Shown here: positions 13,486 through 48,932 of the stretch, one piece after another | How positions within the stretch are numbered: the first letter of the stretch is position 1 | Layout of the letters: every line of letters starts with the position of its first letter | Assembly (NCBI GenBank): GCA_001275005.1 | Contig: JWZX01002898.1 | Span: 1-49,855 of the forward strand | Direction: 5' to 3' | DNA: 49,855 bases | Source: Chrysochromulina tobinii | Taxonomy: Eukaryota > Haptophyta > Prymnesiales > Chrysochromulinaceae | Translations under genes and position numbers: made by a program | Notes under the pieces: generated by a model | Told to the model about the DNA's origin: nothing | The model's database searches: none | Seen by the model: only the letters and a program-made list of their open reading frames with translations

Positions 13486-16400
13486 TCACTTTCTCGGCGA
13501 CGGCACAGACGTGCGGCGGTAGTCAGGGCGAGAGTCAGGAGCCTCAATCGGCGGCGGCGCGACCTTGCCGAGCTTGGCGAACGAGCCAGACGCCTCGGAG
13601 GCTGCACGCTTCAATGGCGTCGGCACGCCGCTGGGCCGCGCGGAGCTGGCGGCGGAGGTGGTGCTACTCCTACCGACGCTGCGCGGCGAGTCAGCGGACG
13701 AAAGCGTTGACGAAACCGTTGGACGCGGCGAGAGGGCGGGAGCGCGCGGCGAGAGCGCCGCAGAGGCGCCGGCGCCGCCCGTGAGCGCTGTACCTGTAGT
13801 GAGCGCGCCGCGGGGCGACTTGGTCGGCACCGGGATGCTGCTGGGCAGGCCGGATTTGGGTTTCGTCAACGGGCTGCCGCTGCTGGGCAGGCCGGATTTG
13901 GGTTTCGTCAACGGCTCCTTGGCAGCGCCGGAGCTTCCCACAGCCTGTGCGAGCGGCGATGGAGGTAGGCCCCCCTTGAGCAGGGCCGTCGTCTTGCTCG
14001 TCTTGAGATTGCTGCCGGAGAGCGCCGTCGCGGGCGGGCTGCCGGAGAGCGCCGTCGCGGGCGGGCTGGGCGAGAGCTCTTCGGGTTTCGTCACTGGCGG
14101 CTCTTCGGAGACGGCGGCGGCCTCCCTGGACCTCTGATCCGTATGGCGCCTCAGCGAGTCCGCATACGCGGCAGCTGCGGACGAGGAGCGAGTGAGCTTC
14201 TCAAGCGCACTCAGCGGCGCACTCGGCGGCGCTTGAGCGTCGTCTCGAGCGGGCTCGGACGAGGCGCGCTCGAGCGCCGTGGCGAGCTCCGCACCGCCGT
14301 CGCCTCGCAGCGCCCACGACGGCGCTCGAAGCGTCGTCTCGAGCGCACTCGGTGGTTTCGTGCCATCCAACGGCCACGCGCTCGCCACTCGCGGCGTCAG
14401 CGCGGAATCGTGCTCTCGCTGTGGGGAAAGCACCGATGCGGAATCGCGCTCTCGCTGTGGGGAAAGCACCGATGCGGAATCGCGCTCTCGCTGTGGGGAA
14501 AGCACCGTCGCAGCCCGCGCGCCTGTGGACGAACGAGCGATCGGGACGGCAGCGGCTAACTCACTCGCGGCGGTGGCGACGGCGGACAAGTCAGTCTTGG
14601 ACATCTCACGACAGATGAGCTCATCCCACGACAGAGAATCGTCGAGGCATGAGGGGAGGCATGAGGGGTGCCCTGCGGCCATTGCATCGGATGCGGCAGC
14701 GTCGGCAAACGCGTCCGATGGCCCAGGGTCGGCGCCTCGCCAGGATGCCAGGGCCCGCGCTGCCTCGCTGTCGGGCGCCGTCGCGGCGGGCACGCGCACG
14801 CCCGACGGCGGTGGCGCGCCCGCGCCCGTGCCCGCGCCCGTGCCCGCGCCCGTGCCCGCGCCGTAAATCTCCATGCGAGCTCGCATCTGCGTGGGCGCGC
14901 TCCTCGGGTCCTCACAGTGGCAAGGCGAGGGCGGCACGGGCGCGGTGGTGGGCGCGCGCCCTCCCTCGACGCCGCCCGCCGCGTCGCCCGCCGCATCGCC
15001 CACGCCATGGCCCATGCCATCGCCCAGCACGGCGCCTCGCGACCGATGGCTCGAGGCGGCCTCTTCGTCCTCCCCGAGCGGACGAAGCTGACGAAGCTGA
15101 CGAAGCGAGGCGGGCTCCCCATCCTTCGACTCGTCCTCCTCGTCGTTGACCAGGTCCTGTCGGGTTTGGAAGATCCACGGATCGCGCGGGTCGTCCTTGT
15201 AAATGAAACCGCCGCCCACACGCTGGTACGACTTGGACGGGGGCAGCAGAGGCGGCGGCAAGCTCGACGAGCGGATGGGCGAGGTTGCCTCACGGCTGAG
15301 GCACGAGGGGGGTCCGAGAGAGGGCGAACGCTTGAGAGAAGGCGGCGGCGACGCTTTCCCGCTCCCCTTGCCGCCGCCGTCCCCCTTTGCGCCGCCGCCG
15401 CCCGTGCCGGAGCCGCCGCCGCCCTTGTCGCCGAGGAGCATGCGCATGAGCTCGCGCTCCTCTTGCAGGTCGCGACGCGCGACGCGCTCAAGACGCGCGG
15501 CGTTCTCGAGCTGCACACGACGGCGCGCGTCCTCCTCCGCGGCCGCTCGCTGCAGCGCCTCCGCGGCCAGGGCGGCTTGGGCGGCCTCGCGCCGTCGAGC
15601 TCGCTCGAGCTCGAGCTGCGATTGGAGCTCCTCGAGCTGCGATCTCGCCTCGGTGCGCGCCGCGACCACGCGCTTCTCCGCTTCGTCAGCTTCGTCAAGT
15701 CGGAGCCTCCGCTCCTCCTCAATCGCGCCCAACGCGGCGCGCATCGCGCTCTCTGCCTCCCTCTCCACGTCGGCCACGCGCTGCTCGGCCGCGCGCTCAG
15801 CACGGCGCAGCTTGGCCGTGTCCGCCTCGAGCGCGTCCACGCGCAGGCGCAGGCGCGAGGCCTCCCGCAGCGCCTCATCGCGCTTGCGCGCCTCGCTCGG
15901 CAGCTCGGCCGCGACAGGCGCGAGGCGGTGGCGCTCCTCATCGCTCGCCTTGAGCGCAAGCTCGAGGCGCTTGCGCTCGTCGTCCGCGTACCTGTGGAAG
16001 GAGGTGATCAGAGGTCATCGGAGGTCATCGGAGGTCGTCGGAGGTCATCGGAGGTCATCAGAGGTCATCAGCGGTCATCGGAGGTCGTCGGAGGTCGTCG
16101 GAGGTCATCGGAGGTCATGTGAAGGTCATCAGAAGGTCATCAGAAGGTCATCAGAGGTCATCACCGATGCGCGTCCTCGAGCCGCCGGCGCGCCTCCTCG
16201 CTCGTGTGCAGCGCCGTCTCGAGCTCCGCTACCTTGGCGAGCGTCCGCTGCATCGCGCGCGCCCCCTCGTCAGCATGCACGCGCAGCTCCGCCGCCTCCG
16301 AGCGGACCCTCTCAAGGTCGCGCGCGTACCTGATGAAGGAGGTCATCAGAGGTCATCAGAGGTCATCAGAGGCCATCACGTACCCGCTCAGCTGGCGCTG

Positions 16401-17522
16401 CGCATCGGCCTAATGAAGGAGGTCATCAGAGGCCATCAGAGGTCATCCGAGGCCATCACGTACCCGCTCAGCTGGCGCTGCGCATCGGCCTCGAGCTGGC
16501 GGCTCGACTCGGCGAGCACGCGGCGCGAGCGGCCGAGCTCGCGATCCATCTCGTCCGCATGCCGCTGAGCTCGGCCGAGCTCGAGTTTCGTCGCGCTCAC
16601 CTGTGGGGTGAGGGCGCCGTGGTGGGCATTTGCATGCTGGGACTGGGAAGGGGCCGAGCTCGAGTTTCGTCGCGCTCACCTCGGCGCGTAGCTGGTCGAG
16701 CTCGTCCGTGCTCGCGGCGAGCTGCTCGCGGTGCTCGTGGCGCTCGAGATGGCGCTCGCGCTCGAGGGTCTGAGCTGCCTCCTCCGCGACGCGCGCGCGC
16801 CGGTTCGCGTGCTCCAGCTCGCCGCGCAGCGCCTGCAGCTCCGCCTCGTGACGACGCTCATCGGCAGCCATTGTGCGCCGCAGCTCCCGCTCAATCTCGC
16901 CACAGCGGTGCGCCACGTCGGCGATCTCGCGATCTCGCCCAGCTCGGAGCCGCTCGAGCTCGTCAGCCTCGCGCCCCTCGCGCTCGCGCAGCTTCTCCAC
17001 CTCGGCCGTCCGCTCGCGCAGCGCATGCATCAGCACCGCGACCTGCTTGTCGCGCTCGGCTGCCCGCGCCTCGGCCACAGCCACCTCGGCCTGCGCACGC
17101 TCGGCCGCTTCCAAAGCATCGCGCTGCGTCGCGGCCGCAAGGCGCGACTGCGACTCGAGCGCGCGAGCGCGCTGCGTCGCCGCGTCGATGCTCAGCCCGC
17201 GGTCGGCGAGCGCCGCATGCGCTGCCCCGAGCTGCACGGCGAGCTGGCGCTCGCGGTCGTGGCGTGCGGCGAGCTGATCCGCGACTACCTGCTGCGAGGC
17301 ACGTGCTGTACTCGCGGTGGCTTCAGCGGCCGCCGCTTTCTTCTCGGCGCTCTCCTTTTCGGTGCGCAGCCGCTCGACCAGCGCGTACAGCCCCTCGATC
17401 TCGTTATGGAGGGGCTCCGACAGCTGCGAGAAGCCGCCGCCCACCCGCCTCATGGCGGCGGGCGTGAGAGTCGGCCGCGAGCCGATGTAGTTCTTCGCAA
17501 AGGTGGGCATCATCGCAGCCAT
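13486..17522 (-). CDS. Large coiled-coil protein with low-complexity Ser/Pro-rich tail
   Basis: Four exons with consistent phases: 16680-17522, 16464-16600, 16165-16329 and 13486-15991, giving 1,216 residues. Residues about 30-560 form an almost unbroken Ala/Arg/Glu-rich coiled coil. The rest is Ser/Pro/Ala-rich and probably disordered, interrupted by an ordered-looking patch (GGFIYKDDPRDPWIFQTR). Internal repeats include three copies of VLSPQRERDSAS, two of LTKPKSGLPSS, two of GSPPATALS and a GAGT run; SPxR/SPR sites suggest proline-directed phosphorylation. It looks like a cytoskeletal or scaffold protein, but I recognise no family. Introns 1-3 all join AG|GT edges; introns 2 and 3 hold TGATGACCTC arrays, and intron 1 contains an exact copy of the next exon's start. 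An in-frame ATG at 17522 begins the model. Confidence 0.75.
14403..14510. repeat. 36-bp coding tandem repeat, three copies
   Basis: The block GCTCTCGCTGTGGGGAAAGC recurs at 14412, 14448 and 14484 with period 36. On the minus strand it encodes three successive copies of the 12-residue unit VLSPQRERDSAS in the coiled-coil protein's tail, so it keeps the frame. Confidence 0.92.
15992..16164 (-). repeat. Intron 3 of the coiled-coil gene: 10-bp minisatellite
   Basis: The intron reads GTGATGACC at its donor and CTTCCACAG at its acceptor on the sense (minus) strand. The body is an array of TGATGACCTC-type units, seen on the plus strand as GAGGTCATCA/GAGGTCATCG/GAGGTCGTCG. Splicing preserves phase 2 and joins CG to G TAC GCG. 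Confidence 0.85.
16330..16491 (-). repeat. 80-bp tandem duplication spanning an exon end and its intron
   Basis: The plus-strand block CACGTACCCGCTCAGCTGGC occurs near 16378 and again 80 bp later near 16458, together with flanking GAGGTCATCAGAGG units. One copy is the real end of exon 2 plus donor. The other lies inside intron 2 (16330-16463), preceded by its own acceptor-like TTCATTAG. The enclosed 26-nt pseudo-exon would introduce a stop if spliced in. Confidence 0.85.
16573..16681 (-). repeat. 30-bp direct repeat bracketing intron 1 of the coiled-coil gene
   Basis: Identical 30-bp copies lie at 16573-16602 and 16652-16681, offset 79 bp, which equals the length of intron 1 (16601-16679). 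Each copy contains an AG|GTGAGC edge on the minus strand. One supplies the donor and the other the acceptor side and exon start. Confidence 0.92.
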
Positions 17523-17654
17523 TCGCGACGGTGCCTATGACAGGGCACGGCAGCCACCGACGGAGGACCGGCGGGAAATGCCATGTGCGGTTCTTCAACA
17601 ATCCGATTCAAGTTCCGGACGAAACGCGCCGTTTTGGTCCCTTCGCATGCAATT

Positions 17655-17677
17655 GGGGGGAGGGGGGGGAGGGGGGG
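17655..17677 (+). other. G-rich tract (possible quadruplex)
   Basis: Three guanine runs of 6, 8 and 7 bases separated by single adenines, about 135-155 bp upstream of the coiled-coil gene's ATG on the opposite strand. It could form a quadruplex or act as a purine-rich promoter element, or simply be a homopolymer-prone tract. Confidence 0.6.
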
Positions 17678-17734
17678 AAGATGGGATTTCGTAGGGAGGT
17701 GCGAGATCGAGAGCGACGCTAAGTCCACCCTCAC

Positions 17735-20700: not shown

Positions 20701-21124
20701 AACTCAACCACCTTCTTCTTCTTCGGTCAAGATGCGTCACGGGCGGCTTGAGGCTCCTCCCGATCCTCCTTCGGATCCTCCAAGCTTGAGCGCTGGACCA
20801 CAGCCTTGTTCTTCACTGTTGCCTTGTCGTGCTCCTTGATCCCAGTGAACTGGTTCACGAGGTCGCTGTCGACCTGAGCTTTATCTAACTGCAGGTGCCA
20901 TCCCGGAGAGCGATAAGGCGCTTCGCGTAGCCCTTAGGGTCCGCGGCGAACTCGCCGAAGCCCATGCCGGCAATATGATGCAGCGTGAGCTCATCACACT
21001 TGGCGTGTGACCCCGCACTCTCGGAGCAGACGATCAGGGGGCCCAGATCCAGGCGGGCCTTAGAAGTCGCAAACAGCGCGAGCACGTCCGGCTGCATCTG
21101 CTCCCCGGTGAAGACCGCCATCAT
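17735..21124 (-). pseudogene. Decayed coding region (Ala/Glu-rich hypothetical protein), many frameshifts
   Basis: Protein-like stretches follow one another on the minus strand but change frame repeatedly. They run from an ATG at 21124 (about 80 residues), then 20885 to 20630 with an in-frame TGA near 20727, then 20635-20340, 20307-20180, 20190-20100, 20099-19960, 19940-19500, 19537-19304 (ends TAA), and further pieces near 19300-19090, 18686-18430, 18553-17950 and 17930-17735. The switches lack credible GT-AG introns. Fragments include an Ala/Lys-rich helical part (SLAKEAERRACELKKTAEQ), the segment PKLTFQQIVGFLKPLLEAKA, a Pro-rich block and an acidic EFEFEFEDV block. I do not recognise the family. 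It may be a dead gene or transposon ORF, or two adjacent remnants. Sequencing error is less likely because neighbouring genes read cleanly. Confidence 0.5.
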
Positions 21125-21250
21125 TGACTCGCTTCTGCGTTAGTGATTTGGATCGGCGATGCTTGAACACGAGCGCACGCCCTTGAGCGCACGACACCGC
21201 GTTCTCCCAAATCTCAATTGAGATTTTAAGGAATCGTGAAGACATATCAT

Positions 21251-21290
21251 CTCACTCACTCACTCACTCACTCACTCACTCACTCACTCA
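21251..21290. repeat. Tetranucleotide microsatellite (CTCA)n
   Basis: About ten perfect CTCA units, roughly 80 bp upstream of the FCP1-like phosphatase ATG and downstream-adjacent to the start of the decayed minus-strand region. Confidence 0.95.
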
Positions 21291-21368
21291 AGAGCGTGGG
21301 ACGGCTCCCGTAGGAACTTTTCCCCACATAACCCGACGCGTTGTATTGGCGGCAAGGGCGTTCAGAAA

Positions 21369-23418: not shown

Positions 23419-23668
23419 AATCTGAAGAGGAAGACCGGTGGGCACACCCCCGTTGGCGGGGGTCCACGTACAGAGCTCAGAACCACGCGCTTCGTCATCT
23501 CAAAAGGCGCGCACTTCCCACTTCGAGCACTCGTTCACACTTCTCGGCACTCGTGAGGTTCGAGATTTTCTCAGAGGACGAGGGGCGGGGGTTGGGTTTT
23601 GAGCGCGGGTTTCTTCACGTGAACAGTTTGAAGGGAACTTGAACTGGGGGTTTGTGAATTGCGAGTAA

Positions 23669-26600
23669 ATGCTCGTCGCCGTCTTGCACGAGATCGTCGG
23701 CGTGGTGGGTGCCATTTTCGAGGCACTGATTGCGTTTGTGCACTCGTGTTGCGGCGAAATTTATCGGCGACGGCGACGGCCTCACGTGACAGTGCTCATG
23801 CTTCTGACCATCTGTGTGCTCATCGCGTGGCTGTCGGTGCAAACTTCTGCCGAAGTGGTGAGCACCGGAAGCCCCACGCCACCGCACCTAGAAGAGTCGG
23901 CGATGCTTCCGCCTAGCACTCCAGAGTCGCGACCATCGGTTACAAGCCGACATGGCACACACTCGCGTGTCGCCGTGACCATCCGATCGCTCCATACCAG
24001 CAAGTACTGGCAGCTGCAGAAGGAGGCCGACGGCACCAGGATGCGCCTCTCTGCCAGTGCGCCGCCGGAGCAGCGAGGGCTTGAGAGCACGGTCTTCCTG
24101 CTGGAGCGCGAGGGCGATCCCGAGAGCGGCGGCTGGGTGCTGCTCAGGTGGCTCAAGACAAGGCAGTTGCTCGAGGCGGTGCCGCCGGGCGTGCTGGGGC
24201 GCGAGGAGGATGCTTGGAGCGTGCGCCTCTCGGAGGCGCCGGCGGTGAACGAGCTGCACAAGCTCATCATCGAAGATGATGCGACGCACTCGCAGTCACA
24301 CATCTGGTCTGTCGGGCTCCACGGCTATCTCAACCAACTTGCCTCCTCAGACGACGTGGTCGGGCACGGCGACGCGTTCCCGCCGACGGTGGCCACCGAG
24401 CCGCCGCCTCGCGGCGCGGTGGCCGTCGAGCGGCTCACGAGCGGAGCCGCGTGGCTGATGGAGGCTCTCGAGCGCCGAGATGAGCAGCTCGACGCGCTGC
24501 AGGAGCAGCTTGATGCGGCGCGTGCCGAGCTGGCGGCGATCTCATCGAAGGTGAGGGGCACGCCCGGGATTGTGATGGATTGTGATGGATGGCCAATGGA
24601 GTGCCACTCGTGAGCTTCGTCAACCCAATGTACCAGGGGAGCGTTAGGGTCTCCTTGACTGTCCTCGATTGCCCTTGATTGAGTGCCACTCATGAGCTTC
24701 GTCATCTCCTCGGCACGCGCCGCGCAGTAGCCGACGCCATGATTGTCCTTGATTGACGAAGCTCATGATTGTCCTTGATTGCCGCGCAGGAGCCGACGCC
24801 ATGTTTGTCCTTGATTGACGAAGCTCATGATTGTCCTTGATTGCCGCGCAGGGGCCGACGCCATGATTGTCCTTGATTGACGAAGCTCATGATTGTCCTT
24901 GATTGCCGCGCAGGAGCCGACGCCAGGGCGACCGGTAAGCTCGCGCGTGAGCCCCACTGCCGCCGCCGCCGCCGCCGCCACCACCACCATCACCACCGAG
25001 GTCTCGACGGACGGGAACGGCGCCTCGACGATGCCCAGCGCGAGACCCTCTGCTGAGGGCTCTCTGGTGGCCGTTGGGACGACCGTTGGGACGGCCGTTG
25101 GGACGGCCGTTGGGAAGCTTGTCGAAGCGCGGACGGCGCCCCAGCGACGCACTCATGTGCACGTCGAATGCCCCGCGAGCGGCGCGAGCGGCGCGAGCGG
25201 CGCGGCGGCAGGCGCCGCTGCTGCCCCAGCCCGCCGCACGAGCGCGCGCAGGCACCGAGGACGAGGACGAGGGCGACTGCGCGAGGCGGCCCCGGGTGGC
25301 GCCCACGACAGCACCACGGACGTCGACGAGGGCGCCCAAGACGACGCGACCTTGAACGCCACGAGCGTGTGCTCTGCGGACGGCCTCCCGATATGGAGTT
25401 ACATGGCGGGGGCCGAGTATCTCAAGTTCGTGCGCGCGATCGCGAGCCGACTGCGCCTCGGCAGCGGCGACGCCCTGTTGGATCTCGCCGCCGGAGATTG
25501 CGGCGCCTCCTCGCTCGCCATCCAGCAACTCTATCGCGGCCGCCTCAAGTCCTTGGCCCTACTGCCGACGGAGGGCTCGGTGCACCTGTTTAGGCAGGCG
25601 TTGCATGCGAGGAGCACGCTGGGCACGCCGCAGGGGCAATTGCAGGGGCAGTTATTACAGGGGCCATTTGCGCCGCAGGTGAACACGTGTGTGGCGAGCG
25701 CCTCCAGGCATGCACGTGCTCACTATGACGCCCTCTCTCCACCCCGCAGGTGAACACGTGTGTGGCGAGCGCCTCCAGGCTCGACTGGCTGCCTCCCAAT
25801 AGCTTCGACGCGGCCATCACATTTGGCGCCTTTAGCATGCTTCGCTCGCGGGCTCGGCTGTGCTCCTCGTACCGCGCCGTCTTGCACACCCTCCGTCCCG
25901 GCGGCCGTTTCGTCATTGCGGACGTAGAGCATCCCGACCGCTGCTCGAGGCCGAGCAGCAGCAGTGGCCCCTCCTCGTCGTCCCTGGCCGAGGCCGCGTC
26001 ACTCAACGGTCAGCCCGATGAGTGCGCCAGCTGCCATTGGCGCGTGTCGGTACCCCTTGCGTTTTGGATTGCATGCACACCAATGGACCTCGAGGTCACC
26101 GTCAGCACCGTCGAGCACACCGACCTGCCGGGTACCTCCACGTATCCGTGCGCCTCGCGACACTTTGCGCTGCTCGCGCAGCGGGCCTCAACGCCGCACG
26201 AGGTGAGGGCCACCATCGAGGCAAGCTCGGAAGAGAGCAAAGCGAGCAAGGTGGCGGTGCTTCTCTCCCTGTCGGCGAGCGACACGGTCGACGGCGAGTT
26301 CCAGCAGCGTGTGCAGTATCTCAAGGAGGCCTCGATCGATAACAAGCGCATGTACTGCGGTCTGCACGGCTACTCGCTCGTGATCGGCGAGGAGCTCCAC
26401 CATGCGCGCGACAGGTGGGCGAGTCGATTGCCATGGATTGCCATGGACTGCCATGGATTGCCATGGATTGTCATGGATTGCCACGGATTGCCATGGATTG
26501 CCATAGATTGCCATGGATTGCCATGGATTGCCATGGATTGCCACGGATTGCCATGGATTGCCTCCCAATGGCCTCCCAATGGCCTCCCGATGGCCGCCCT

Positions 26601-27418
26601 TCTCTCATGAGCTCTACCCTGGGCGCGGCAGAGGCTGGGACAAGGTGAAGTTGCTGGCCGCGCAGCATGCCAATTACGAGTGGCTCCTGTGGGTACCGCT
26701 CGATGCCATCTTTGCTGATACGGCGAGCTCTCTCGATGCGCTCACCGACGACAAGCGCGCAAATATCATCGCGTTGCAGGACGAGAGTGGCGATGGGATG
26801 GGGACTGGGGTACTTTCCGAGCCCCTTCTCATCCGAGGCAAGACCGAATGGTCACGGCGGCTCCTCGAGCAGGTGCGCTGATGGCCGCTGATGGCCACTG
26901 ATGACCTCTGATGACCTCTGATGACCTCTGATGGCCGCTGATGACCGCGGAGGACCTCTGATGACCTCTGATGGCCTCTGATGGCCTCTGATTGCGTCCC
27001 TCATCACTCCTTGAGCAGTGGTGGGGCTTTTACACCGATGGCTTCGGCGGCAGTGACAGAGAGGCGCTTCAGCTCATTCTCTCGTCGATGAACGAAGAGG
27101 AGCGCGCGCGGCGCGTGCGCATCATCCAGCCCGACGCGGTCTTTAGCTCGGTGGCGTCGGTGGAACCGCTCGCCTGGGCGCTGCCCTACACGCCTCCGGC
27201 CTTGCTCGTCTCCTTTGATGATAGCACGAGCCTCGTCGGTGCCGCCGAGCGTGCCCCCAGCACCATCGCCTGCCCGATGCGGAGCAGCGACCGTCAATTG
27301 CTTCGGTGCCTGCATGCCTTCACCTCGCACCATCTCAAGGCGATTCAGGCCGCCGATGCGCGTTACCATCCGCCGGCCGTCTTCGACACGACCGAGCACG
27401 CCATCACGACGACCGAGG

Positions 27419-27457
<39 letters not shown>

Positions 27458-29566
27458 GCAGTGCGGAGAGGGCACAAGAGGCGGGCGTGGAGGACGAGGC
27501 AGCCCGGGCGCGCAACTCGAGCGGCATGGCCGGTGGCGGCGGCATGGCCAAGAGTAGCGGCGCCGAGATCGATCTGGCGGGCCCAGATCGATCTGGCGGC
27601 GCCGAGATCGATCTGGCGGGCCGTTGGCTCACCCCTCGGCTTTCCTCGGGGCGCCCGATGGGTGGAAGTCCCCACAGGGCGATGGCCTGCCCCGCCGCAC
27701 TCTCGCGCCTTGCTGATGACGTGTCCAATCGGCTCAAAAAGAGGCCGGGGCGCGGGCGGAGCTTCCCGACACGGCTCCTGAGCGCGGCCAAGGAGCTCGC
27801 GTTGCATCAGGCGGCCGTTGCGCGTGAGGAGCGTCTCAAGGTAGGGCTGAGCGCCGACGTGGGCGCGTCTGTATCGCCAGGGAGCCAGGGGGGCGAGGGC
27901 AAGGGCGTTGAGGACGAGGAGCAGGCGGAGGCGGCATGCGCCACCGGCAGCACCTGGCCGCTCATGCCGCCCGCGCTCCTCGCCAAGCACGTGCTGGCCA
28001 TCGGCACGCGCCTAGCGCTAGGAGAGGGGATGTCCGTCCTCGACGTTGGAGCGACCTGTGGCCACGCGCTCGCGATTCTGCAGGCGCGCTACCGCAACAA
28101 GCTGCGTGCGATGGGCGTCGATGGCTCGAAGGCATCCTTGCAATATGCGAGGCGCACGTGCCAAGGCACCTTTTGCGTCGGCGACGCACGCCAGCTCTCC
28201 GGGCTCGCCGACGAGAGCTTCGACGTCGCGTTCACCATGGACATCATGTCTCAGTTGACCAGCACCGGCGACGTGTGTGACGTGGCCCGTGAGCTCGCGC
28301 GCGTGGTGCGACCTGGCGGGCGCGCGATGATCGTGTCCGTGCCGAAATCCTCGTGCGCGACCACGCATGACGCGAGCTGGGACTGCCCGCACTGCTTTTG
28401 GCAGCTCAAGAGCATCGACAAGAACTTTTGGGCGGCGTGCTTGTCGCAGCCGCCGGCGAGCGAGGGCTCGAGGGGGGGGAGGAGCTGGGGGCTCGGGGGG
28501 GGGAGGAGCTGCTGGCGGCGCGTACCGCATTGAGATTGTCGCGAACACGGAGCTCTTCCCCTCGAAGCCCGGGAGCTATTGCCATCGAGAGCACTACTCC
28601 GTGCTGATCCATAAAAAGTCGCCCGCCAGCGTCTTCGTCTTCCAGCAGCCGAAGCCCAAACTCGCCGTCCTCACCGTTGCCAGTACGCCCCCTATTGGCG
28701 AGTACGGCAAGCAGAAGGTGCATTACCTCACAGAGCTCTCGATCGAGAACAAGCGGCAGTACTGCGCGCAGCACGGCTTCGAGCTTGTCGTCGCGCAGAA
28801 CCTCGCTCACGGGCGGACGGCGCGCTGGGATAAGGTGCGGCTCCTCGCTGATGACTACTGATGACCACTGGTGACGCCTGATGACCTCTGATGACTACTG
28901 GGATAAGGTGAGGCTCCTCTCAGGCTCCTCTCAGGCTCCTCTCAGGCTCCTCTCAGGCTCCTCTCAGGCTCCTCTCAGGCTCCTCTCAGGCTCCTCTCAG
29001 GCTCTGGCGCCGGTGGCTCGCGTATCGGTGCTCACTACGGCGCCTCGCGCTCCCCACAGGTGATGCTCCTGCGCCGGATGCTCGCTCACTACGAGTGGGT
29101 GCATTGGGTGGACCTGGATACGCTCTTCATGAACCTGAAGCGCTCGCCGATGGAGTTCCTCGACGGCGCCTTTGACTTGCATGTGGCCAAGGACGCCAAC
29201 GGGCTGAACACGGGCTCGTTCTACGTCAAGGCCTCACCGTGGTCACACGAGCTCCTTCGGCGCGTGTGGGAGCATAATGACGGCGGTCAGGGCGAGTCGG
29301 ACCAGCGCTCGTTTGCACACGTGATCGCGCAGCTGTCCGGGCGCGAGCGGACAAAACACGTCAAGTACTACGCGCAGAAAATCTTCAACGAGTACCCCGA
29401 CCCGATCGTTTCTTTCAAGGGATGGCGCGGCCACTTTCGCGAGGGCGATTACCTGCTGCATTTCCCGGGTACCTTTTGCGGACTCTCGCCGAGCGGCGTG
29501 TACACGGACATGCACCTGCTCTCGTGCTTGCACCGCTTCACGATCCACTTTGTGGCGGCCATGTAG
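23669..29566 (+). CDS. Membrane-anchored tandem methyltransferase-GT34 glycosyltransferase fusion
   Basis: Six exons: 23669-24550, 24914-25678, 25750-26414, 26632-26872, 27019-28834, 29060-29566 (about 1,625 residues). After a short hydrophobic N-terminus, RRRRR and a membrane helix (about 40-57) suggest a type II Golgi protein. A trefoil-like beta domain (about 97-225) and a coiled coil follow. Then come MT1 (about 475-620), GT34 copy 1 (about 715-970), MT2 (DVGATCGHA near 1190) and GT34 copy 2 (about 1398-1620). Copy 2 keeps DxD (WVDLDTLF), LNTGSF and the GDYLLHFPG end motif of GMA12/MNN10-type galactosyl/xylosyltransferases. Copy 1 has WVPLDAIF and no GD..H motif, and MT1 lacks the acidic residue after beta 2, so the first pair looks inactive. 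Between MT2 and GT34-2 (28470-28510) the frame shifts by one base within runs of 8 and 9 G. The link between exons 1 and 2 crosses a repeat-filled intron and is the weakest junction. Confidence 0.8.
24721..24913 (+). repeat. 62-bp tandem repeat carrying four copies of a splice acceptor and exon start
   Basis: CGCGCAG followed by a variable trinucleotide and CCGACGCCA occurs at 24721, 24783, 24845 and 24907, exactly 62 bp apart. The spacer units read ATTGTCCTTGATTGACGAAG. The last copy is the acceptor and first codons (GAG CCG ACG CCA) of exon 2 of the glycosyltransferase fusion. Confidence 0.92.
25673..25780 (+). repeat. 37-bp direct repeat bracketing a 71-bp intron
   Basis: Identical 37-bp copies at 25673-25709 and 25744-25780, offset 71 bp, which is exactly the intron length (25679-25749). 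Each contains CCGCAG|GTGAACACG, so the same sequence serves as donor on one side and as acceptor plus exon start on the other. Confidence 0.93.
26427..26592 (+). repeat. 10-bp minisatellite within an intron
   Basis: About thirteen copies of CCATGGATTG with scattered substitutions (CCACGGATTG, CCATAGATTG), then three CCTCCCAATGG-like 11-mers. They fill the intron 26415-26631 that interrupts the first GT34 domain. Confidence 0.93.
26873..27018 (+). repeat. Intron filled by TGATGRCC decamers
   Basis: The intron starts GTGCGCTGATGGCC and ends TTGAGCAG. Between them are about eleven 10-bp units (CTGATGGCCG, CTGATGACCT). The exon end before it (CTCCTCGAGCAG) is nearly repeated at the intron's own 3' end (CTCCTTGAGCAG). 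The first 14 bases equal those of the intron at 44762. Confidence 0.9.
27420..27455 (+). repeat. (AGC)n coding microsatellite, poly-Ser
   Basis: About eleven consecutive AGC codons encode a poly-serine run in the linker between GT34 copy 1 and MT2 of the fusion protein. Confidence 0.95.
28899..29005 (+). repeat. Exon-edge copy plus 11-bp minisatellite inside an intron
   Basis: Within the intron 28835-29059, TGGGATAAGGTGAGGCTCCTC (28899) nearly repeats the exon end and donor at 28826. From 28911 the unit AGGCTCCTCTC then repeats about eight times. The upstream part of the intron holds CTGATGACC-type units. Confidence 0.9.
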
Positions 29567-29767
29567 AGAGTTGTGAGAGTTGTGGGAGTTGTACACTGTA
29601 CAGCACGGTGTAGCTCATCTAGGCGAGGGAATCCTATTCCTCGGTACGTTTTATATTGAAAGAACCATCTCGGAGTATTTTGGGGGATATTCGAAGCCCG
29701 AGCTCGCGGTGCTCAGCTGGACATTTCGTGTAAGCTTCGCGTGTCTGCATCTATTTCTTTCGCACAC

Positions 29768-37079: not shown

Positions 37080-37149
37080 CTGCCACACAGCACAGCACAC
37101 AGCGTGGCGGCGGTCAGGGCGGGCTCAGCAAGGCGTTGACGCGACCCAT

Positions 37150-40832: not shown

Positions 40833-42782
40833 TCACCTCTTCGAAGGTTCGCCGCTCGCCCTCGAGATCAATGCACCCTCTGCATCTGCACCCAAGCGTG
40901 CCCACTCGCTCGCTGCCACTTGTCGAGCCATCTCCGGCGCCACAAAGACGTGGTCGTACGCCTGCTGAGCACAGGCCTTGCTGAAGCCCACGCGCGACTC
41001 GATCAGGCCCCGCGCCTCGCTCTCGCGCTGCAGATGGAAGCTTCGGAGCATGCGTGCCTCCTCGCGCTTCTTGGCAATCATCTTGGCGCGCTCGGCGGCC
41101 GCGTTGCGCCGTATAGCGTGCACCTCGGCCGACTTGGCACGCGCGTACTCGAGGGAGTCGCTCAGCCCATCACGGCGCGCCGCATCCCATTGCTGCACGC
41201 TCGCTTTGGTCGCCAGGCCCAACTCCATGCGCTGCATCGCTGCATACTCCTGCGCATCGACCGCCTCTGTGGTGAGCCCCGGTCGGTCGAGTTGGCTCGA
41301 GGCTCGCGCCCTCTGGTTCTCTTTGCGAACCTTGGCTGCGGCGGCGCGGCGCGTGCCTTCGACTCTGTGCATGACCGCCCGTGCCTCGGCCGTCTCTGCG
41401 CAGCGACGCACCTGCGTGATGAGGGATGCGACCCTCATTAGCATGCAATCATTAGCATGCAATCAGGCGACGCACCTTGAGCTCCATAGCATGTCATCGT
41501 TAGCATGCAATCATTAGCATGCACTCAGGCGACGCACCTTGAGCTCCAGTGCCGCCTGAGCGCGTCGCTGCATCGCCTCCCGCTGCGCCTCGACGGTTCG
41601 GTGACGCTGCAACCTCCCGTGGACCTCGTGCGATTCTCGCTGATGCACGAGGAACTCCAGATGCTGACGCTCGCGCTGCCGTCGTTGCTCGTCGCGCTGC
41701 TGGCGTGTCTCGGAGCCGAGTCGTGCGGCGCTCGCGTGCACCTCGTGCACCGCGAGTGCGGCCTTGCTGGTGCATCGGACCACGCCAAGGCTAACGCCAA
41801 GGGTGCCCAGAACCGAAGCCACAACCATTGTGGACGGCGTGCTAGCAAGGGGCTGGGAGGTGCTAGCATGGCTTTCGACATTCGCCCTGGCGGATCGCTC
41901 TCGAGATCGCTCTCGAGATCGCTCGGCCTCGCGCCGCCAGGTCAACTTGTTTGCTCGCAGCTGGGCCGCGCCCTGTCGGTTGTGGTCGACCACGCAGAAG
42001 CGCGCGAAACGAGTCGCTGAGCATGAAGCCTCCACGTCCCCCAGGGCGACAAGGGGCCCCGCCTCATGGGCCCGATCCTTCGCAATGGGGAGCTCGGGCG
42101 GCAAGCAACGCGCGGCAGCCCGAGACCGAGAGGCTTTGAGCGCGGCAGCGGCAGCAAGCATTCCAGCGTCGGCCCTCTGACGAACCTCGTGCGCCTTGAG
42201 CGCGGCCGCAATGACTCGCCGGGCCACTCGGACCGCCTCCCGCTGCGCCTCGTCGGCCGCCTCTGCCCGTGCGGCGTCTCGACGCGCAGCGCGACGCTCG
42301 GCGTCACGGTCAACATGAGCCAGGACTTGTCCGACTGTACAGCCCTCAGTGTAGAGCTCGTCGTCATCGTGCTCGATGTCATCGGCGTATGCGCGCTCGA
42401 GTTGCTCCGTGATCCGAGCACACTCCTGCTGCCACTCGTCAGGGTCGGTGATTCGTTGCGACAAGTCCAGATGCCCCAGCCTCTCAAATGCAGCAGACCG
42501 CTTGGCAGCCGGGTTGGCCGCCTCCTTGGCCAGCAACCGCATGCGCAGCGAGAGGCGGTTCTCTGCTGGTGCACTGGCCGTGGGGCGCACTTCCGGGATC
42601 GTGTGCCTAGCTGCAACACCGTACTCTGCGCCCGAATACAGAGACAGCACAAGCGGCAGCACCAATGGCGGTACAATTGGAGGTGGCGAACGCGGCGCCA
42701 CTACATGTAGCGGCTCGACGTCAGTGCCAATCGAGAGGTTGTCGACCGCGAACATGTCGACCACGTCGTCCATGCTATCCAT
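40833..42782 (-). CDS. Ala/Arg-rich coiled-coil protein, unknown function
   Basis: Two exons, 41538-42782 and 40833-41411, joined in phase 0, give about 607 residues from the first in-frame ATG (42782). The frame stays open 5' of this ATG up to 42917, so an upstream start exon is possible. The N-terminal 90 residues are acidic and Pro-rich. The rest is almost entirely charged helix with many EAQRE, RRAERSRERSRERS and AERAKMIAKKREEA stretches. A better-structured C-terminus (ESRVGFSKACAQQAYDHVFV) ends the protein. I recognise no family; the pattern is typical of cytoskeletal or flagellar structural proteins. The 126-bp intron repeats the exon-end plus donor block once (41464-41486), and the following exon starts with the same GTGCGTCGC. 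Confidence 0.72.
41402..41548 (-). repeat. Exon-edge duplication within an intron, 62-bp offset
   Basis: The 23-bp block CAGGCGACGCACCTTGAGCT.. occurs at 41526-41548 (real exon end and donor on the minus strand) and at 41464-41486 inside the intron. Its first part recurs a third time at the next exon start (41402-41411). Spacer sequence is built of ATTAGCATGCAATC-like units. Confidence 0.88.
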
Positions 42783-43021
42783 GCGGGTCCAAAAGCCCTG
42801 TAGCAAGGGATGTCCGTTTTCGCTATGAATACTGGACCGTTTTCGTGCATCTGCATGCAAACGATCTTCCTTCTCACAGTCTAAATCATCGCACACAGGT
42901 TTGAGCGTTAAGTCCACACAGTACAGCGGCGCTAAGGCAAGCGCGTCCCCGGAAATTCGCTACTCAAAGGTTTCACAAACTGATTCACAAGGAAAAAGGT
43001 CAGCCGAGACGCGTCGTCCTT
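42783..43021. promoter_or_regulatory. Divergent promoter region
   Basis: About 240 bases between two outward-reading genes. It is less GC-rich than the flanks, with several short T/A-rich patches. It must hold the promoters of both the coiled-coil gene (-) and the GNAT-like nuclear protein (+), unless unseen 5' exons exist. No specific element is identified. Confidence 0.4.
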
Positions 43022-44179
43022 ATGGAGCCCGCTATCGGCGCTCTCAAGAGGCCGCTCGACGAAGGCGGAAGCTTTATCGACGTACCGCCTCCGAAGCGTG
43101 CGGCCGATGGTGCACAGGGCGGGGCGCCAGATGCGCAAGGCAGCGCAAGCAACTCGATGGCGGCAAACTCCGTGGCCGCCGCGAGCACAAGCCTGGAGAA
43201 GAGTCATGGCAAATCCAAGGGCAAAGCGAAAGCCGCGGCAGCGGTGCAGCCACCGCCCGCGACCACCGCAAGCAAAGATCAGGAAACGAGCGCCAAGGCA
43301 GGCAAGCGCAAGTCGCCCAGTGGCGAAGCGGCCGCTGGCCCATCCACGGCCGCGCCCGCGCCGCCGCCTGCCAGATCGCGAGGCAAGGGCTCGCTTGGCA
43401 AGGGCGTGGCAGACGAGGCCGCGGTGGCCATGATCGGAGGCGGAGGCGGCAAGGCCGTGGCCGAAAAGCCGCCTCCGATCACGGAAGCGGCGGCTTTGGC
43501 CGCGAGCGCAGCGTTGGCGGGCAGCTGCGCGCGGCGGCTGACGCGTGGCGTCGTCCCTGCGCTCAAGGCTGAGCTCGTGAACCAGATGGCGTCGGCCCCG
43601 ACGGCGCCGATGGAGGGATGGCACCAGAAGGATGGTGATGACGACAGCATGGCGCACATCACGACATGGGAGGGCTGGGAGAGCCGACTAAAGGAGGAGC
43701 GCGTGCCCTCGTACGTCCTCGAGGAGCTGTGGAACCTCATCCGATCTCTCGTCGACGAGATCAGCCAGCAAGCGATGCAGCCCCCGGCGATGGCACGCAC
43801 GCTCGGATTGCCCGACATGGCGCTCGAGCTGCCCGGCACGGCGCCGTCCTCCTCCGCCTCGGCACCAGCGGCGCCGGCGGCGCCCGGCACGGCGCCCGGC
43901 ACGGCGTCAAATGCGCCCGCCACGGCGCCCGGCGGCTTCGGCACCGCGCCCGGCACGGCGCCCGACGCTCCATCGGCAGCCCCTGGGTGGAAGGATGGCG
44001 TCGTCGCGGGCGCGAGGGCTCCCGAGCCCACCGCTGCCCCTTGTGCGGCGCAATCAGTCGCAATCAGTCGCAATCAGTCGCAATCTGCCCCTTGTGCAGC
44101 GCCGCCCGTCTCGGCGCCGCAGCTCGCAGCCGCAGCACTACCACATGTACCACCACCACCAGCAGCAGTACTACCAGCA

Positions 44180-44219
<40 letters not shown>

Positions 44220-47200
44220 CGGTGGCCGCACCTTGCGAGCCGTCGCACTGCGCGTCCGCTATGGGCATGGCTTTCGAGCAGTGCATGCAACCGTCGCAGT
44301 GCATGCAACCGTCCGCTATGGGCATGGCTTTCGAGCAGTGCATGCAGTGCGACGGTTGCATGCACTGCGCGAAGCATCGAGTGCATGCAGCCGCTACGGG
44401 CACGGCCTTCGAGCGCAGCGCCAACGGGCAAGCGAGTAACGGCTGCATGCAACCTGCCGGTACCGAGGGCGCCAACGGCGGCGTGCGGCTGCCCCCTGGC
44501 TGCATGCAACCGGACGCGTACGACCTGAGCGAGCGCCTCCGCCGGTTGCTGCCCTTAGCTAAGAAGCCGCTCTCGTTCGGGCAGCTGTATTACCTTCTAC
44601 TCGGCACCCTCGTCGGCTATAAGAATCGTGTGATGCCTCGTACGATCGTGCCAGAGGGCCCATTGACGAAGCAGGCCCTCATCTCCGCCAATCTCGCCCA
44701 CCATGCCTACTCGCTGGGCGCGACAGTGCACAAGAGGCTTGATGAAGCCTTCCTAGAGCAGGTGCGCTGATGGCCTCTGATGGCCACTGATGGCCACTGA
44801 TGGCCTCTGATGGCCACTGATGGCCTCTGATGACCTCTGATGACCACTGATGACCTCTGATGGCCTCTGATGACCTCTGATGACCACTGGCTCACCTTGC
44901 CTAATCTGGCCACTGGCTCACCTTGCCTAATATGGCTCCCCTTGCCCCTTGCCCCGACCCGACCCGAGCAGTGTGCGCGTACCGCCCGAGCTTTGCGACT
45001 CGACCATCCCGTGAGCGGCGGCGCCATCCCCCTTCGGAAAGCACTCAAGGCTGTGCTCGAGACGGCGCCTTTCTCGCAGTACGAGGTGATGACGAAGCAG
45101 GCGTACAACCTGCTCATCGGCCAAAAGAAGCTGTGGGTGAGCGGCGAGCGTGAGCAGCTGCTACAGACCCTGTGCACACGGGATGGGCGCACTTGGATCA
45201 CACTCGACTTCTTCGTCCAGGTGCGATCGCCCCTGATTGCCCTATGATTACCCTCTGATTACCCTCTGATTAGCCTCTGATTGCCCACTGATGGGCACTG
45301 ATCTGAGCGCCGCTGATCACGCTCGAATGCATCGTGCGCAGCACACGTCGTGCAACGCGTCAGAGACATACGTGCTCGTGCACGCCCCCACGCGGAAGAT
45401 CGTGGGGCTTGCAGCCGTCTCCGACTTCCAGACGCCCTGGACGGCGGGCCAATTCCATCACATGGCGCATGCATGCCAGGAGGACCGCATGTTCTTCTTT
45501 GGGCGCAAGTCTGAAAAGGAGCTCACCCCCAAGGTACCATCCGACACTGATTGCCAAAGGAGCTGACCCCCAAGGTACCATCCGATTCTGATTGCCTCTG
45601 ACTTAAAAGGAGCTGACCCCCAAGGTACCATCCGATTCTGATTGCCTCTGACTTAAATGGAGCTGACCCCCAAGGTACCATCCGATTCTGATTGCCTCTG
45701 ACTGCTTCTGATTGCGTCTGAGTGCGTCCCTCATCAGGTCGCAATCGACCTGTCGGCCTCATTCGAGGGCGGCACGCGCTGGACAAGCCACTTCCACATG
45801 CCCACCCTCCTCTCGGTCGACATCATCTGCGTACAACCGGGCGTTCGAGGGCTAGCGCACTTGCTGCTCGCGCACATCTGCTGCCTCACCTCGTCCTTCA
45901 CCGCCGACCGCACCCATTGGCTCTTCGACATCTCCGGGCGCGAGAGCAACCTTCGCATGGTCCGCTTCACGCAAGGGATCGGTGCGTCGCACATGCAGAC
46001 CTTTGATGGCCTTTTGATTGCCTTTTGTTGGTATGCAGACCTTTTGATGGGTACATGGTCCACTTCTGATTACCTTTTGATTACCTTTGGATTACCTTTT
46101 GATGGGTACACGCTCCACTTCACACAGGTGCGTCGCACATGCAGACCTTTGCCGACGAGGCTCGCTCCGAAGGGTACGTAGGCGTCGAGGGCGACGATCC
46201 GTCCATTTACTGGACGTACAAGACCGCCAACGGCTTCGGGAAGGACGACGGGAGCACCGCAGGCGTGTACGCGGTCGACGTGGAGCTCGGCAGGTGAGTG
46301 TCGTTCATGATTGCCTCTTGATGACCTCTTGAGTGCCTCTTGAGTGCCTCTTGAGTGCCTCTTGATTGCCTCTTGATTGCCTCTTGATTGCCTCTTGATT
46401 GCCTCTTGATTGCCTATCGATTGCCTCTTGATTGCCTCTTGATTGCCTATTGATTGCCTCTTCTGAGTGCCTCTGATTCCTCACGCGGTCGATGTGGACC
46501 ATGTCGGCAGTACCATCGGCACCGAACACCCGGCCGTGCTCTTCAATGACCGCGTGACCCAGAGCGACTTTTTGCGAGGGGGCAAGAACTGCTCGTACTT
46601 TGCAGTCGCGCCACTCGAGGTGTCGAGGACGAAGCTCACCCAGCAGCTCGAGCAGCTCCGCGCCCAGGTGTGTGTCGTTCATTGCTGCCTCTTGATTGCC
46701 TCTTGATTGCCTCTTGATTGCCTCTTGATTGCCTCTTGATTGCCTCTTGATTGCCTCTTGATTGCCTCTTGATTGCCTCTTGATTGCCTCGAGCACGAAG
46801 CTCACCCAGCAGCTTGGGCAGCTCCGTGACCAGGTGCTTGGGACGGCGCTCGGATGCGCCCACTGATTGCATGCACGCGCTCACAACGGCGCCCCACCCC
46901 TCTTCCCCACAGGTGCTCGCCGAAGAGCTCGAGGCGGCGCTCGAGATCAAAGCTCGCGAGCTGGGGGCCACCGAAGCGCTCGCAGCCGCTGCCGCTGCGC
47001 TCGAGCGCCGCCTCGAGCACCCGAGACTCCCGTGGCAACACGCCCAATACGGCGCCGCGGGCGCGCCCGATGCGGCGCTCGATGTGGACCCGAGCATGTT
47101 GAACTCGCTGCTCGCCTCCCCCGAGATCTCCCCCGAGATCGACTCCTCGCCGAAGCCGCCGCTACCGCCACTCAAGGGCGTCCTGCCTCCTTGCATGCAA

Positions 47201-47305
47201 ACGCTCACAACGGCGCCGCACCCCACTGAGAGCGACCTGCCGCCCGTGGCGAGGGCAGCGCCTAGCGTGACGGCGCCACACTCGACGAAGCTTGACGAGG
47301 CTTGA
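43022..47305 (+). CDS. Nuclear-type protein with GNAT-like acetyltransferase fold and C-terminal coiled coil
   Basis: Seven exons with a fully consistent frame: 43022-44761, 44972-45220, 45342-45533, 45738-45981, 46128-46293, 46511-46667, 46913-47305 (1,046 residues). The N-terminal 580 residues have basic nuclear-localisation-like motifs (PPPKRAADG, KAGKRKSP), Ala/Pro repeats (APGTAPGTA), a poly-Ala run and recurring CMQP units. A helical region (LSFGQLYYLLLGTLVGYKNR) leads into a segment resembling a GNAT core. This has VLVHAPTRKIVGLAAV, then SVDIICVQPGVRGLAHLLLAH, where the CoA-binding loop would be R/Q-x-x-G-x-G/A (here QPGVRGLA). A coiled coil (LTQQLEQLRAQVLAEELEAALE) closes the protein. 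If the fold is right it could acetylate a protein, perhaps chromatin; the assignment is tentative. Every intron contains TGATT/TGATG-type repeats or exon-edge copies. Confidence 0.7.
44762..44971 (+). repeat. Intron filled by TGATGGCC decamers
   Basis: The intron begins GTGCGCTGATGGCCTC and carries about twelve 10-bp units (CTGATGGCCA, CTGATGACCT), followed by a GGCTCACCTTGCCTAAT duplication (44888 and 44912). It ends CCCGAGCAG. The first 14 bases match the intron at 26873 in a different gene. Confidence 0.9.
45518..45708 (+). repeat. Four copies of exon end plus donor within an intron (50-bp unit)
   Basis: GGAGCTSACCCCCAAG followed by GTACCATCCGA occurs at 45518 (true exon 3 end and donor), 45559, 45609 and 45659. 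The later copies are spaced exactly 50 bp with TCTGATTGCCTCTGACTT filler. The intron (45534-45737) ends TGCGTCCCTCATCAG. Confidence 0.93.
45981..46151 (+). repeat. 25-bp direct repeat bracketing a 146-bp intron
   Basis: GGTGCGTCGCACATGCAGAC.. is present at 45981-46005 and 46127-46151, offset 146 bp, equal to the intron (45982-46127). The interior holds TTTTGATTGCC/TTTTGATTACC units. Confidence 0.93.
46294..46510 (+). repeat. Intron with TTGATTGCCTC array and exon-end copy
   Basis: About fourteen 11-bp units (CTTGATTGCCT, CTTGAGTGCCT). The intron's last 28 bases (CACGCGGTCGATGTGGA...TCGGCAG) are a diverged copy of the end of the preceding exon (ACGCGGTCGACGTGGA.CTCGGCAG). Confidence 0.88.
46668..46912 (+). 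repeat. Intron with TTGATTGCCTC array and an in-frame exon-like copy
   Basis: Ten or so TTGATTGCCTC units are followed at 46789-46833 by a diverged copy of the previous exon's end (ACGAAGCTCACCCAGCAGCT...), with its own GT donor. The last part (GTGCTTGGG...CCCCACAG) starts like the next exon (GTGCTCGCC). Confidence 0.88.
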
Positions 47306-47474
47306 CGATGCTTTTCACCACCTGCATGAACCTTCCACACCGTTCACCGCCCCTTTAGCCATTCAATGGAGATCCGTAGACCAGTGAAAGGCCTTTCCGA
47401 GGGCTAGTATTCCTTTCAGTTACAGAAAATATTGGGATTCGGGGCGTTGTGTTGAACACTCGCCAATCTCTCGC

Positions 47475-47540
47475 ATGGAATTCACCTTGCCGAAGGCGAA
47501 GGCGAGCGCCCGGCCAGCCTCGACGCGCCTGAGCTTGTGA
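47475..47540 (+). other. Short upstream ORF before the PARP gene
   Basis: An ATG at 47475 opens a 21-codon frame ending TGA at 47538-47540, 14 bp before the chosen ATG of the SAM-PARP protein and in a different frame. It could act as an inhibitory uORF if transcription starts upstream. It may equally be chance. Confidence 0.35.
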
Positions 47541-47554
47541 GGCGACGAGGTGGC

Positions 47555-48932
47555 ATGGCTTGGCTATGGCCCACCCCGTGGACGCAGGCTTCCGCCGAGG
47601 ACTCCTTCAAGGCCACGCCTCGGTCCGTCTCGGGTGCGTCGACGCCTCGGCTCGGGGATATCTCACGGAATACATCACCACTCTCAGAGACCAGCAGCCC
47701 TCGCTCGGATATCAGCCAGCGAGCAGACCGGCTCCCACCCGCACTTGTGGGCTCCGTGTCCGACTGGCTCGAACGCGTGAAGAAGGGTTACGGTCGCTTT
47801 GCGGTCGCCTTCGAGGCGCTCGGCATCGAGGACACCAACGACATCCACAACATCGATCGAACCATCTTTGAGCATGTCGAGACGCTGTTGCGCGACGGTT
47901 GCGGCGCCAAGTCCATGCACCTCAAAAACATCCACATCGCCCTGCTCGAATACGGGTGCAACCTGCGCACCGCAAGTGAGGAAGCCACAGCGGCCGAGGG
48001 CGGCGTGCCTTTCCTCGCGCTGAAGGACGCCAAAGGGCGGCTCGCGCCAGTCGGTGCCAGCCATGCAGCCGCTGCCAGCGGCTCTGGAGCGGAGCTCGAG
48101 TCGGCTGCTCCACATGTGGCCTCAGTGGCTACGAACGTGCCTCCGATGCCGCCGCCACGGCCGCTGCTGCGACAATCTGATTCGAGCGTCGCGCGCGCGC
48201 AGCAGTGGGATGAAGTCGTGTCGGCGATGGCCGCGCAGGCGACGGGCAGCGGGCTGTGGAATCGGCTCGCGCGCGGCGTCGAGACGGAGCAGGAGCTCCT
48301 AGACTTCTTTCGTCGGCGCCAGGTGATGACCACTGGTGATGACCTCTGATGACCCATGATTGCCTCCGATCGGCCTTGAATTGCGAGAATTCGACGCGTG
48401 GCTCGAGCAGGTGATGGCCGCTGATGACCTCTGATGACCCCTGATTGCCTCCGATCGGCCTCTAATTGCGAGAATTCGACTCGAGCAGGCCTCCGAAAAG
48501 GGCGGCAAGATCCTGCACATCGCGTCTGCGGTCAAGGTCGTCAACAACGCGGCGCTGTCGCACTTTGCAGCCACGAAGCACCTGCATCTGCACCCGATGA
48601 AAGCGCACAAGACGGGCGACACGCTCCTCTTTCACGGCTGCCCGCAGGTGGCGGCTGTGAACATCCAGGCCGATGGGCTCAAGATCGGCTTCGCATCGAA
48701 CGGCATGCTCGGCCGCGGCTTGTACGGTGCACCCGACCCTCGCAAGAGCCTCCAGTACTGTAAGGACTCGCCCAATGGCCGATTCATGTTCCTGTGCCGC
48801 TTCAACCTCAAGGAGGCGAAGCACGCCGGGCCGGAGACCAAGCACCGCAACTCGATCTTTGACGAGTTCTGCATCTACGACGAGAAGCATGTGGTGGTCC
48901 TGTGGATGCTCAAGCTCAAAGAGCCTCGATGA
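47555..48932 (+). CDS. SAM-domain PARP-type ADP-ribosyltransferase
   Basis: Two exons (47555-48322 and 48489-48932), phase 0, 403 residues. The N-terminus is Ser/Thr/Pro-rich with TPR and SPR sites. A SAM-like helical domain follows (about 70-140; VSDWLERVKKGYGRFAVAFEALGI, here cited only by its span). After a low-complexity linker comes a PARP catalytic domain (about 255-403). The nicotinamide-pocket His is in LFHGC, the Tyr in GRGLYGA, and the catalytic Glu appears kept in FDEFCIYDE, so the H-Y-E triad of ADP-ribosylating PARPs is intact. It would use NAD+ to modify proteins or nucleic acids, as PARP10/11/14- and tankyrase-like enzymes do; tankyrases also pair SAM with PARP. It is short for the family and has no WGR or ankyrin domain. 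The start is the first in-frame ATG. Confidence 0.85.
48323..48488 (+). repeat. PARP intron made of two tandem intron-like units
   Basis: Unit 1 (48323-48409) and unit 2 (about 48410-48488) both run GTGATGRCC...CTGATGACC...GATTGCCTCCGATCGGCC...GCGAGAATTCGAC...CTCGAGCAG. Each therefore carries its own donor and acceptor. Only splicing from the first donor to the last acceptor keeps the PARP frame. Confidence 0.88.

Follow-up and report, generated by a model that had tools for sequence, protein, structure and literature searches.

Array-bearing introns of the window

The stretch of DNA considered here (the window, 49,855 nt) is the whole of contig JWZX01002898.1 of the haptophyte Chrysochromulina tobinii, listed as C1739 in a 53.15-Mb assembly of 2,253 contigs, and genes along it are interrupted by introns containing arrays of a 10-11 bp unit that almost always points with the direction of transcription. 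Judged from sequence, many of these introns look like inserted, intron-making pieces of DNA that duplicated about 27 nt of the host gene. The motif TGAT[TG][AG][CT]C occurs in the window 81 times on the plus strand and 19 times on the minus strand, compared with about five per strand in a first-order Markov simulation.

A first-pass annotation had listed 12 introns with such arrays, and arrays are indeed present at the positions it named. Nine of its 12 intervals (15992-16164, 26873-27018, 41412-41537, 44762-44971, 45221-45341, 45534-45737, 45982-46127, 46294-46510 and 48323-48488) were called exactly by a gene model that was given coding hexamers and GT/AG only, together with a strand-symmetric intron model and without the unit motif, and whose penalties were picked on the window itself, a stricter setting calling fewer of the listed introns. 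The intervals 16330-16463, 28835-28900 and 46668-46912 had no exact call, and the second of these proved to have a wrong end, with no acceptor there and two stops left in the best frame; removal of 28835-29059 instead yields a GT34 glycosyltransferase frame whose sole stop is terminal. Three introns were absent from the earlier list: 16601-16679 on the minus strand, and 25679-25749 and 26415-26631 on the plus strand.

The plus-strand gene at 43022-47306 gives a stop-free frame of 1046 amino acids once its six listed introns are removed. At junctions 1 to 5 the covering homologues show no gap (8, 10, 15, 15 and 15 of 15, respectively), including P0130 and P0132, which are transcript-derived judging by their names. 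Junctions 2 to 5 are well conserved and junction 1 moderately so, examples of conserved junctions (marked by a slash) being FFFGRKSEKELTPK/VAIDLSASFEGGTR and FTQGI/GASHMQTFADEARS, and the region around junction 6 is variable, one homologue ending there. Intron 1 (44762-44971) contains an array of about 12 CTGATGGCCT/CTGATGACCT units; intron 2 (45221-45341) has CTGATTACCCT units and a copy resembling the upstream exon near its 3' end; and intron 3 (45534-45737) consists of 50-bp repeats, made of an exon-end copy, a donor and TGATTGCC, and ends in CTCATCAG. Intron 4 (45982-46127) carries TTTGATTACC units and a host duplication identical over 24/24 nt (45982-46005 and 46128-46151). The last two involve the D and C types described below: intron 5 (46294-46510) has a D-type 5' end (GTGAGTGTCGTT) and a TTGATTGCCTC array and, where it finishes on the 3' side, repeats the end of the upstream exon; intron 6 (46668-46912) has a D-like 5' end, an 11-bp array, a copy of the upstream exon end and then a C-type 3' end.

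In the minus-strand gene at 17522-13486, a frame of 1216 amino acids results once 15992-16164, 16330-16463 and 16601-16679 are taken out. The first of these introns has a TGATGACCTC-type array, and the second has two arrays and lies in a region (16329-16491) where an 80-bp segment of exon plus intron is tandemly repeated with a 96% match. The third is a putative C-type introner of 79 nt with a payload of 51 nt, flanked by a 28-nt host duplication (28/28) of which copy 1 (16652-16679) supplies the GT donor and copy 2 (16573-16600) forms the start of the downstream exon. A second putative C-type introner, of 71 nt, lies on the plus strand at 25679-25749 with a duplication of 31/31 (25679-25709 and 25750-25780), and its frame is open when spliced and not open unspliced. 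Other plus-strand introns are 26415-26631, with a sense GATTGCCATG array and a GT34 frame that is open on its removal; 26873-27018, with a CTGATGACCT array, from the gene model and a spliced-frame check; and the corrected intron 28835-29059, in which TGATGACC units are combined with a AGGCTCCTCTC array of unrelated sequence, the 3' end being of the C type. The AGGCTCCTCTC array (28904-29009) is a different 11-bp array, derived from a duplicated exon start. The minus-strand intron 41412-41537, with CTAATGATTGCATG units, has the gene model as its basis, and removal of the plus-strand intron 48323-48488, which has two tandem blocks of TGATGACC units, leaves an open frame with a PARP domain.

Outside the window, removal of the arrays from one sampled sequence (L018) restored an SNF2 helicase that aligns through the junctions with a solved SMARCA chain, and removal from another (L017) restored a 2OG-Fe(II) oxygenase. 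The frames and the homologue alignments support the array intervals as introns that would be precisely spliced. They have the GT/GC-AG ends of major (U2-type) introns, GT-AG having been demanded by the gene model, and a U2 snRNA with the usual GUAGUA was found in the genome (E = 8.2e-28).

Array-bearing introns cluster in some genes (23669-48929 in the window), and the polyketide synthase, TCP-1 and kinesin genes are long uninterrupted frames. The polyketide synthase (240-8936, minus strand) is an intronless frame of 2898 amino acids with AprA-like methyltransferase and winged-helix domains towards its N-terminal side. The best named relatives of the TCP-1 alpha protein are from Haptolina ericina (84%) and Prymnesium parvum (82%), with a 99% match on an ENA contig, and another protein of the window has 20 relatives, among them Prymnesium, Emiliania and Chrysochromulina.

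Orientation, shared intron ends and host-exon duplications

Orientation was scored in a non-random sample, in which L010 was chosen for array richness, L011-L035 take in the opening 10 kb of every 28th contig between C20 and C692, and contigs numbered above C692 are represented by the window only. In 74 introns predicted blind to the motif the unit occurs 177 times in sense and twice in antisense orientation, compared with 25:29 in exons. Of 33 clusters of at least three units, found in 22 sequences, 29 run with the coding strand of the flanking DNA, two run against it and two are unclear; a second array definition, applied to 27 sequences (309,855 bp), gave 49 merged arrays, with 42 on the coding strand, two against it and five unclear. 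Of the merged arrays, 23 are situated in predicted introns and 17 between exons of the same strand, and all 40 of these are sense; eight lie elsewhere and one is antisense within an exon. This only exonic antisense array is at 44042-44093 in the window, where ACTGATTGCG/CGCAATCAGT units lie on the minus strand of a predicted plus-strand exon and are apparently translated. The array at 24740-24907 was also scored as opposite to its coding strand, and removal of 24551-24926 left stops in all three frames. A 62-bp tandem repeat with CATGATTGTCCTTGATT units and host-like segments occupies 24719-24925.

Across the 53 Mb of the genome, CAGGTRNG followed within 30 nt by a pair of units was found 266 times in sense and nine times (six loci) in antisense orientation, both counts being inflated by overlapping and tandem matches; acceptor-side counts are small (5 versus 0). 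The earlier claim that the unit follows the direction of transcription is strongly supported by these counts, both in the window and genome-wide, where the two orientations are far from equal. The arrays consist of head-to-tail tandem copies, as minisatellites do, but are not independent of gene orientation.

The 10-bp unit resembles a branch site. In 370 such units from 60 arrays, the columns read C/T, T, G/A, A, T, G/T, A/G, C, C and T, and the presumed branch A is the least variable of them, occurring in 361 of 370 units and varying by 2.4% within arrays, units of one array not being independent of each other. The G preceding this A changes to A in 31 of 36 changes, as YTRAY would predict. 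Pairing of the U2 GUAGUA with CTGAT would be possible with wobbles, and use of the unit A as a branch point is plausible. The distance from YTRAT to the intron end in array-bearing introns is periodic (12 cases at 15-19 nt and 15 at 25-29 nt), with no single position standing out. A hairpin between CTGAT and ATCAG at the T-type 3' end was considered and dropped by eye, the CTAAT and TTAAT variants keeping ATCAG without a matching change.

Near-identical intron ends are dispersed in the genome. The T-type 3' end, YTRAT-KRYCTCCCTCATCAG, in which the A of YTRAT lies 16 nt before the intron end, has 1,185 genome matches. The C-type 3' end, GCATGCAAGTGCTCACCACGGCGCC-Yn-CCCCACAG (Yn being a pyrimidine stretch), is represented by 327 exact 25-mers, and C-type cores with the following acceptor CCCACAGGT number 486. 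The D-type 5' end, GYGAGTSTCGTTNATTGCCTCTTGATTGCC, is found 51 times at three mismatches or fewer, in some cases with GC donors; two introns of the window, those at 46294 and 46668, begin in a similar way. Reversed-pattern controls for the genome searches with the C, C plus acceptor, T and D ends gave 0 matches each. A single payload in L001 unites the T unit and the C end. As expected of introners, similar introns or parts of introns thus recur in many unrelated genes, the unrelatedness of the hosts having been checked at a few loci only. The sequence TGCATGCA opens many C-type cassettes (the pieces between the host copies) and is frequent in and around genes of the genome, including coding sequence of the window (44240-44540). 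Payloads checked by eye revealed no terminal inverted repeats, in the absence of a systematic search.

Scans of IMG/VR for the array and for the T end gave no matches, and GTDB contigs scanned for the C 25-mer gave none either; the IMG/VR scan for the C core returned one contig (3300027760_000958). This contig ends in a C-type intron end with acceptor (L039, 4499-4554), its other frames being phage-like by eye, and probably reflects a chimeric join in the assembly.

The first bases of many T- and C-type introns recur as the first bases of the downstream exon. A fixed rule applied to the fetched sequences, among them L001, L036, L037 and L038, which were fetched by motif, yielded 56 T and C copies. 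Every one of these was assessed for duplications, and the null comprised 1,522 comparisons with the exons of other copies. Duplications above the null maximum surround 28 of the 56 copies (C 15/25, T 13/31), and 32 of 56 exceed the 99% level. Two intervals occur twice among the 28 rows and two are flagged as tandem overlaps, leaving 26 rows for length statistics, in which the duplication spans 14-40 nt with a median of 27 and the cassette 39-60 nt in 21 cases. A target-site duplication of the kind expected of introners is thus present in these copies. The first copy starts with GT in 18 of the 28 rows, GC in six, AT in three and CT in one.

Besides the three perfect duplications of the window (at 16601-16679, 25679-25749 and 45982-46127), T elements elsewhere have duplications of 27/27 (L037, L032) and C elements of 22/22 (L001), 27/27 (L035) and 28/28 (L033). 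Arrays themselves are bracketed by clean duplications, for example at L032 4897-4817 (21/21) and L010 414-330 (16/16). The reverse arrangement, in which the end of the upstream exon is copied at the 3' end of the intron, is seen at 26873, 45221 and 46294 in the window and at L018 8840. A significant host copy at either end is found in 14 of 35 predicted T/C-family introns (or in 17 of 41 once six more are included by hand), compared with two of 39 other introns.

Proposed insertion and growth, and alternative origins

The arrays probably represent branch-site units that have expanded within introners whose target duplications are unusually long, and the earlier suggestion of remnants of a mobile intron family draws good support from the dispersed, near-identical 3' and 5' ends and the host-exon duplications of about 27 nt. 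The families appear introner-like and presumably mobile. The proposed process would begin with the insertion into an exon of a cassette of branch site, pyrimidine tract and AG, duplicating about 27 nt of target. The first target copy, mostly starting with GT or GC, would become the 5' splice site, so that the original frame would be read again after splicing. For D-type introns and others like them, the donor would come from the cassette and the AG from the duplicated exon end. The YTRAT unit would afterwards grow by tandem duplication to a 10-11 bp array. Only sense insertions would be spliceable and an antisense array would add an AG and a GT per unit, which would explain why arrays in genes point with the gene. 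A more specific form of this account is tentative, falling somewhat short of an even chance. Under it, a mobile cassette of about 45-50 nt that supplies a 3' splice site, with hardly anything in it besides a branch site, a pyrimidine tract and AG, would spread with a target duplication of about 27 nt, borrow its 5' site from the duplicated exon and later multiply its branch site. Such target duplications would be far longer and more variable than those of known introners.

Local tandem duplication alone might instead account for the gain and growth of the introns, without anything mobile, by doubling an intron 3' end with the next exon start, or an exon end with its donor, the arrays then arising by slippage. 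Clear tandem copies exist at 16329-16491 (80-bp period) and 45556-45703 (50-bp period) in the window and at L013 3409-3546 and L010 7019-7095, and a potato RdRp intron formed from a doubled intron 3' side and exon 5' side provides a precedent (PMC4974935). In 20 of 31 hand-listed cases, however, the sequence immediately before the first copy has nothing element-like; there is thus no visible intron to double, and the cassette seems to have entered plain exon. The rest have an earlier element upstream, which agrees with later tandem duplication, or in one or two of them perhaps a chance unit in the flank. The same cassette ends, moreover, recur hundreds of times genome-wide. Tandem duplication was rejected as the only source on these two grounds, and as a complete explanation it is unlikely. 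Nor do the introns follow the model of AGGT tandem duplication, in which the intron body copies the adjacent exon: their payloads belong to dispersed families, with tandem copies at some loci. Insertion and later tandem duplication both seem to be at work. The genome-wide recurrence of the cassettes is the reason for reading the first step as introner insertion, with local growth as the second. At L033 1480-1611, two tandem C-type cassettes are parted by copies of one 28-nt host segment, forming a one-step series of intron growth.

Orientation alone is no proof of the branch-site idea, since the antisense unit GAGGTCATCA has an AG and a GT in each copy and would be selected against anyway. Selection against cryptic splice sites might thus be what orients ordinary intronic minisatellites, neither dinucleotide being present in the sense unit TGATGACCTC. 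Both are rarer in sense than in antisense in the predicted introns (AG 548 sense to 946 antisense, GT 474 to 616), with strand bias of intronic repeats known elsewhere (PMC3152781). Such selection should nevertheless favour numerous unrelated units that lack AG, whereas a single unit is matched by 65 of 109 arrays of period 10 or 11 (at a loose cut of 0.7, with two consensus forms), and the array at L018 4451-4647, mostly TGAGTGCCGC, lies in sense orientation although its sense strand has AG and GT. As the only cause it was ruled out by the single dominant unit family and by this array, and since it also leaves the shared intron ends and the host duplications unexplained, it is a very improbable account of the whole. 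Inexact repair of double-strand breaks that leave long overhangs, with existing introns as the source of the filler, would need no dedicated mobile element and would agree with the variable duplication length (14-40 nt), unlike the fixed short duplications of cut-and-paste elements, as well as with the variation of cassettes on their 5' side; it is doubtful rather than negligible, as filler would be expected from anywhere, yet a few families with fixed ends recur.

Several observations weigh against the introner account. The other 28 of the 56 T and C copies have no duplication above the null maximum, most T/C-family introns are without a significant host copy, and some duplications are tandem copies of a pre-existing intron-exon boundary and not new insertions. 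A motif-blind scan for direct repeats bounded by AG/GT gave 200, compared with 256, 102, 69 and 30 in controls, and so did not beat all of them, because coding tandem repeats dominate the scan. No autonomous partner or integrase turned up, no search for either having been made. In the small set of 11-bp arrays (five, with 34 units) the position of lowest variability is not the presumed branch A. The first-pass description of the arrays as possible reiterated branch-site-like elements is compatible with the 10-bp units, which read Y-T-R-A-Y.

The origin of new introns is a long-standing question, and this genome offers apparently young introns whose target duplication can still be read, the best examples being identical over 22-31 nt. 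The footprint of insertion, the borrowed splice site and later intron growth would thus be directly legible. If the arrays are repeated branch sites, they would also form a natural series for the effect of branch-site number on splicing.

Comparison with known intron-generating systems

No description of sense-oriented branch-site arrays or of duplications near 27 nt was found among the open-access papers listed by the literature searches. Neither feature was seen in the accessible parts of reports on mirusvirus introners (PMC12768974), direct repeats near splice sites (PMC11782384) and Micromonas introns (PMC3879977).

The closest parallel is with introners as surveyed by Gozashti et al. 2022 (PMC9860276), whose survey includes a metagenome genome of the haptophyte Chrysochromulina. 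Both comprise dispersed similar introns in unrelated genes, with a target duplication supplying one splice site, and the arrangements known from introners include one like that proposed here, where the 5' site comes from the duplication and the 3' site from the element itself. The duplications given there for characterised introners are 3-9 bp, and 4 bp in the Chrysochromulina case, whose element carries the 5' site, whereas the median here is 27 nt. That survey filtered out low-complexity families, a step that would probably have dropped array-bearing introns, and introns of this kind may therefore be under-counted elsewhere.

Amoebophrya introners, according to the part of the report available (PMC7789003), are likewise mobile introns with direct repeats at exon borders, but those repeats are 3-5 nt, accompanied by inverted repeats of 8-20 nt and often by non-canonical splice sites, whereas the duplications here are long and the donors mostly GT or GC. 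Some loci are identical in form to the potato RdRp case, as far as its available description goes, in that a doubled intron 3' side and exon 5' side makes a new intron; most of the listed cases differ from it in having no earlier upstream element, and the cassettes belong to dispersed families. The strand-biased intronic tandem repeats of Daphnia share the strand preference, but in the portion of that study available they are mostly short units of moderate bias with no link to splice sites, in contrast to the single 10-11 bp unit described here, which has a near-complete bias and is tied to intron ends.

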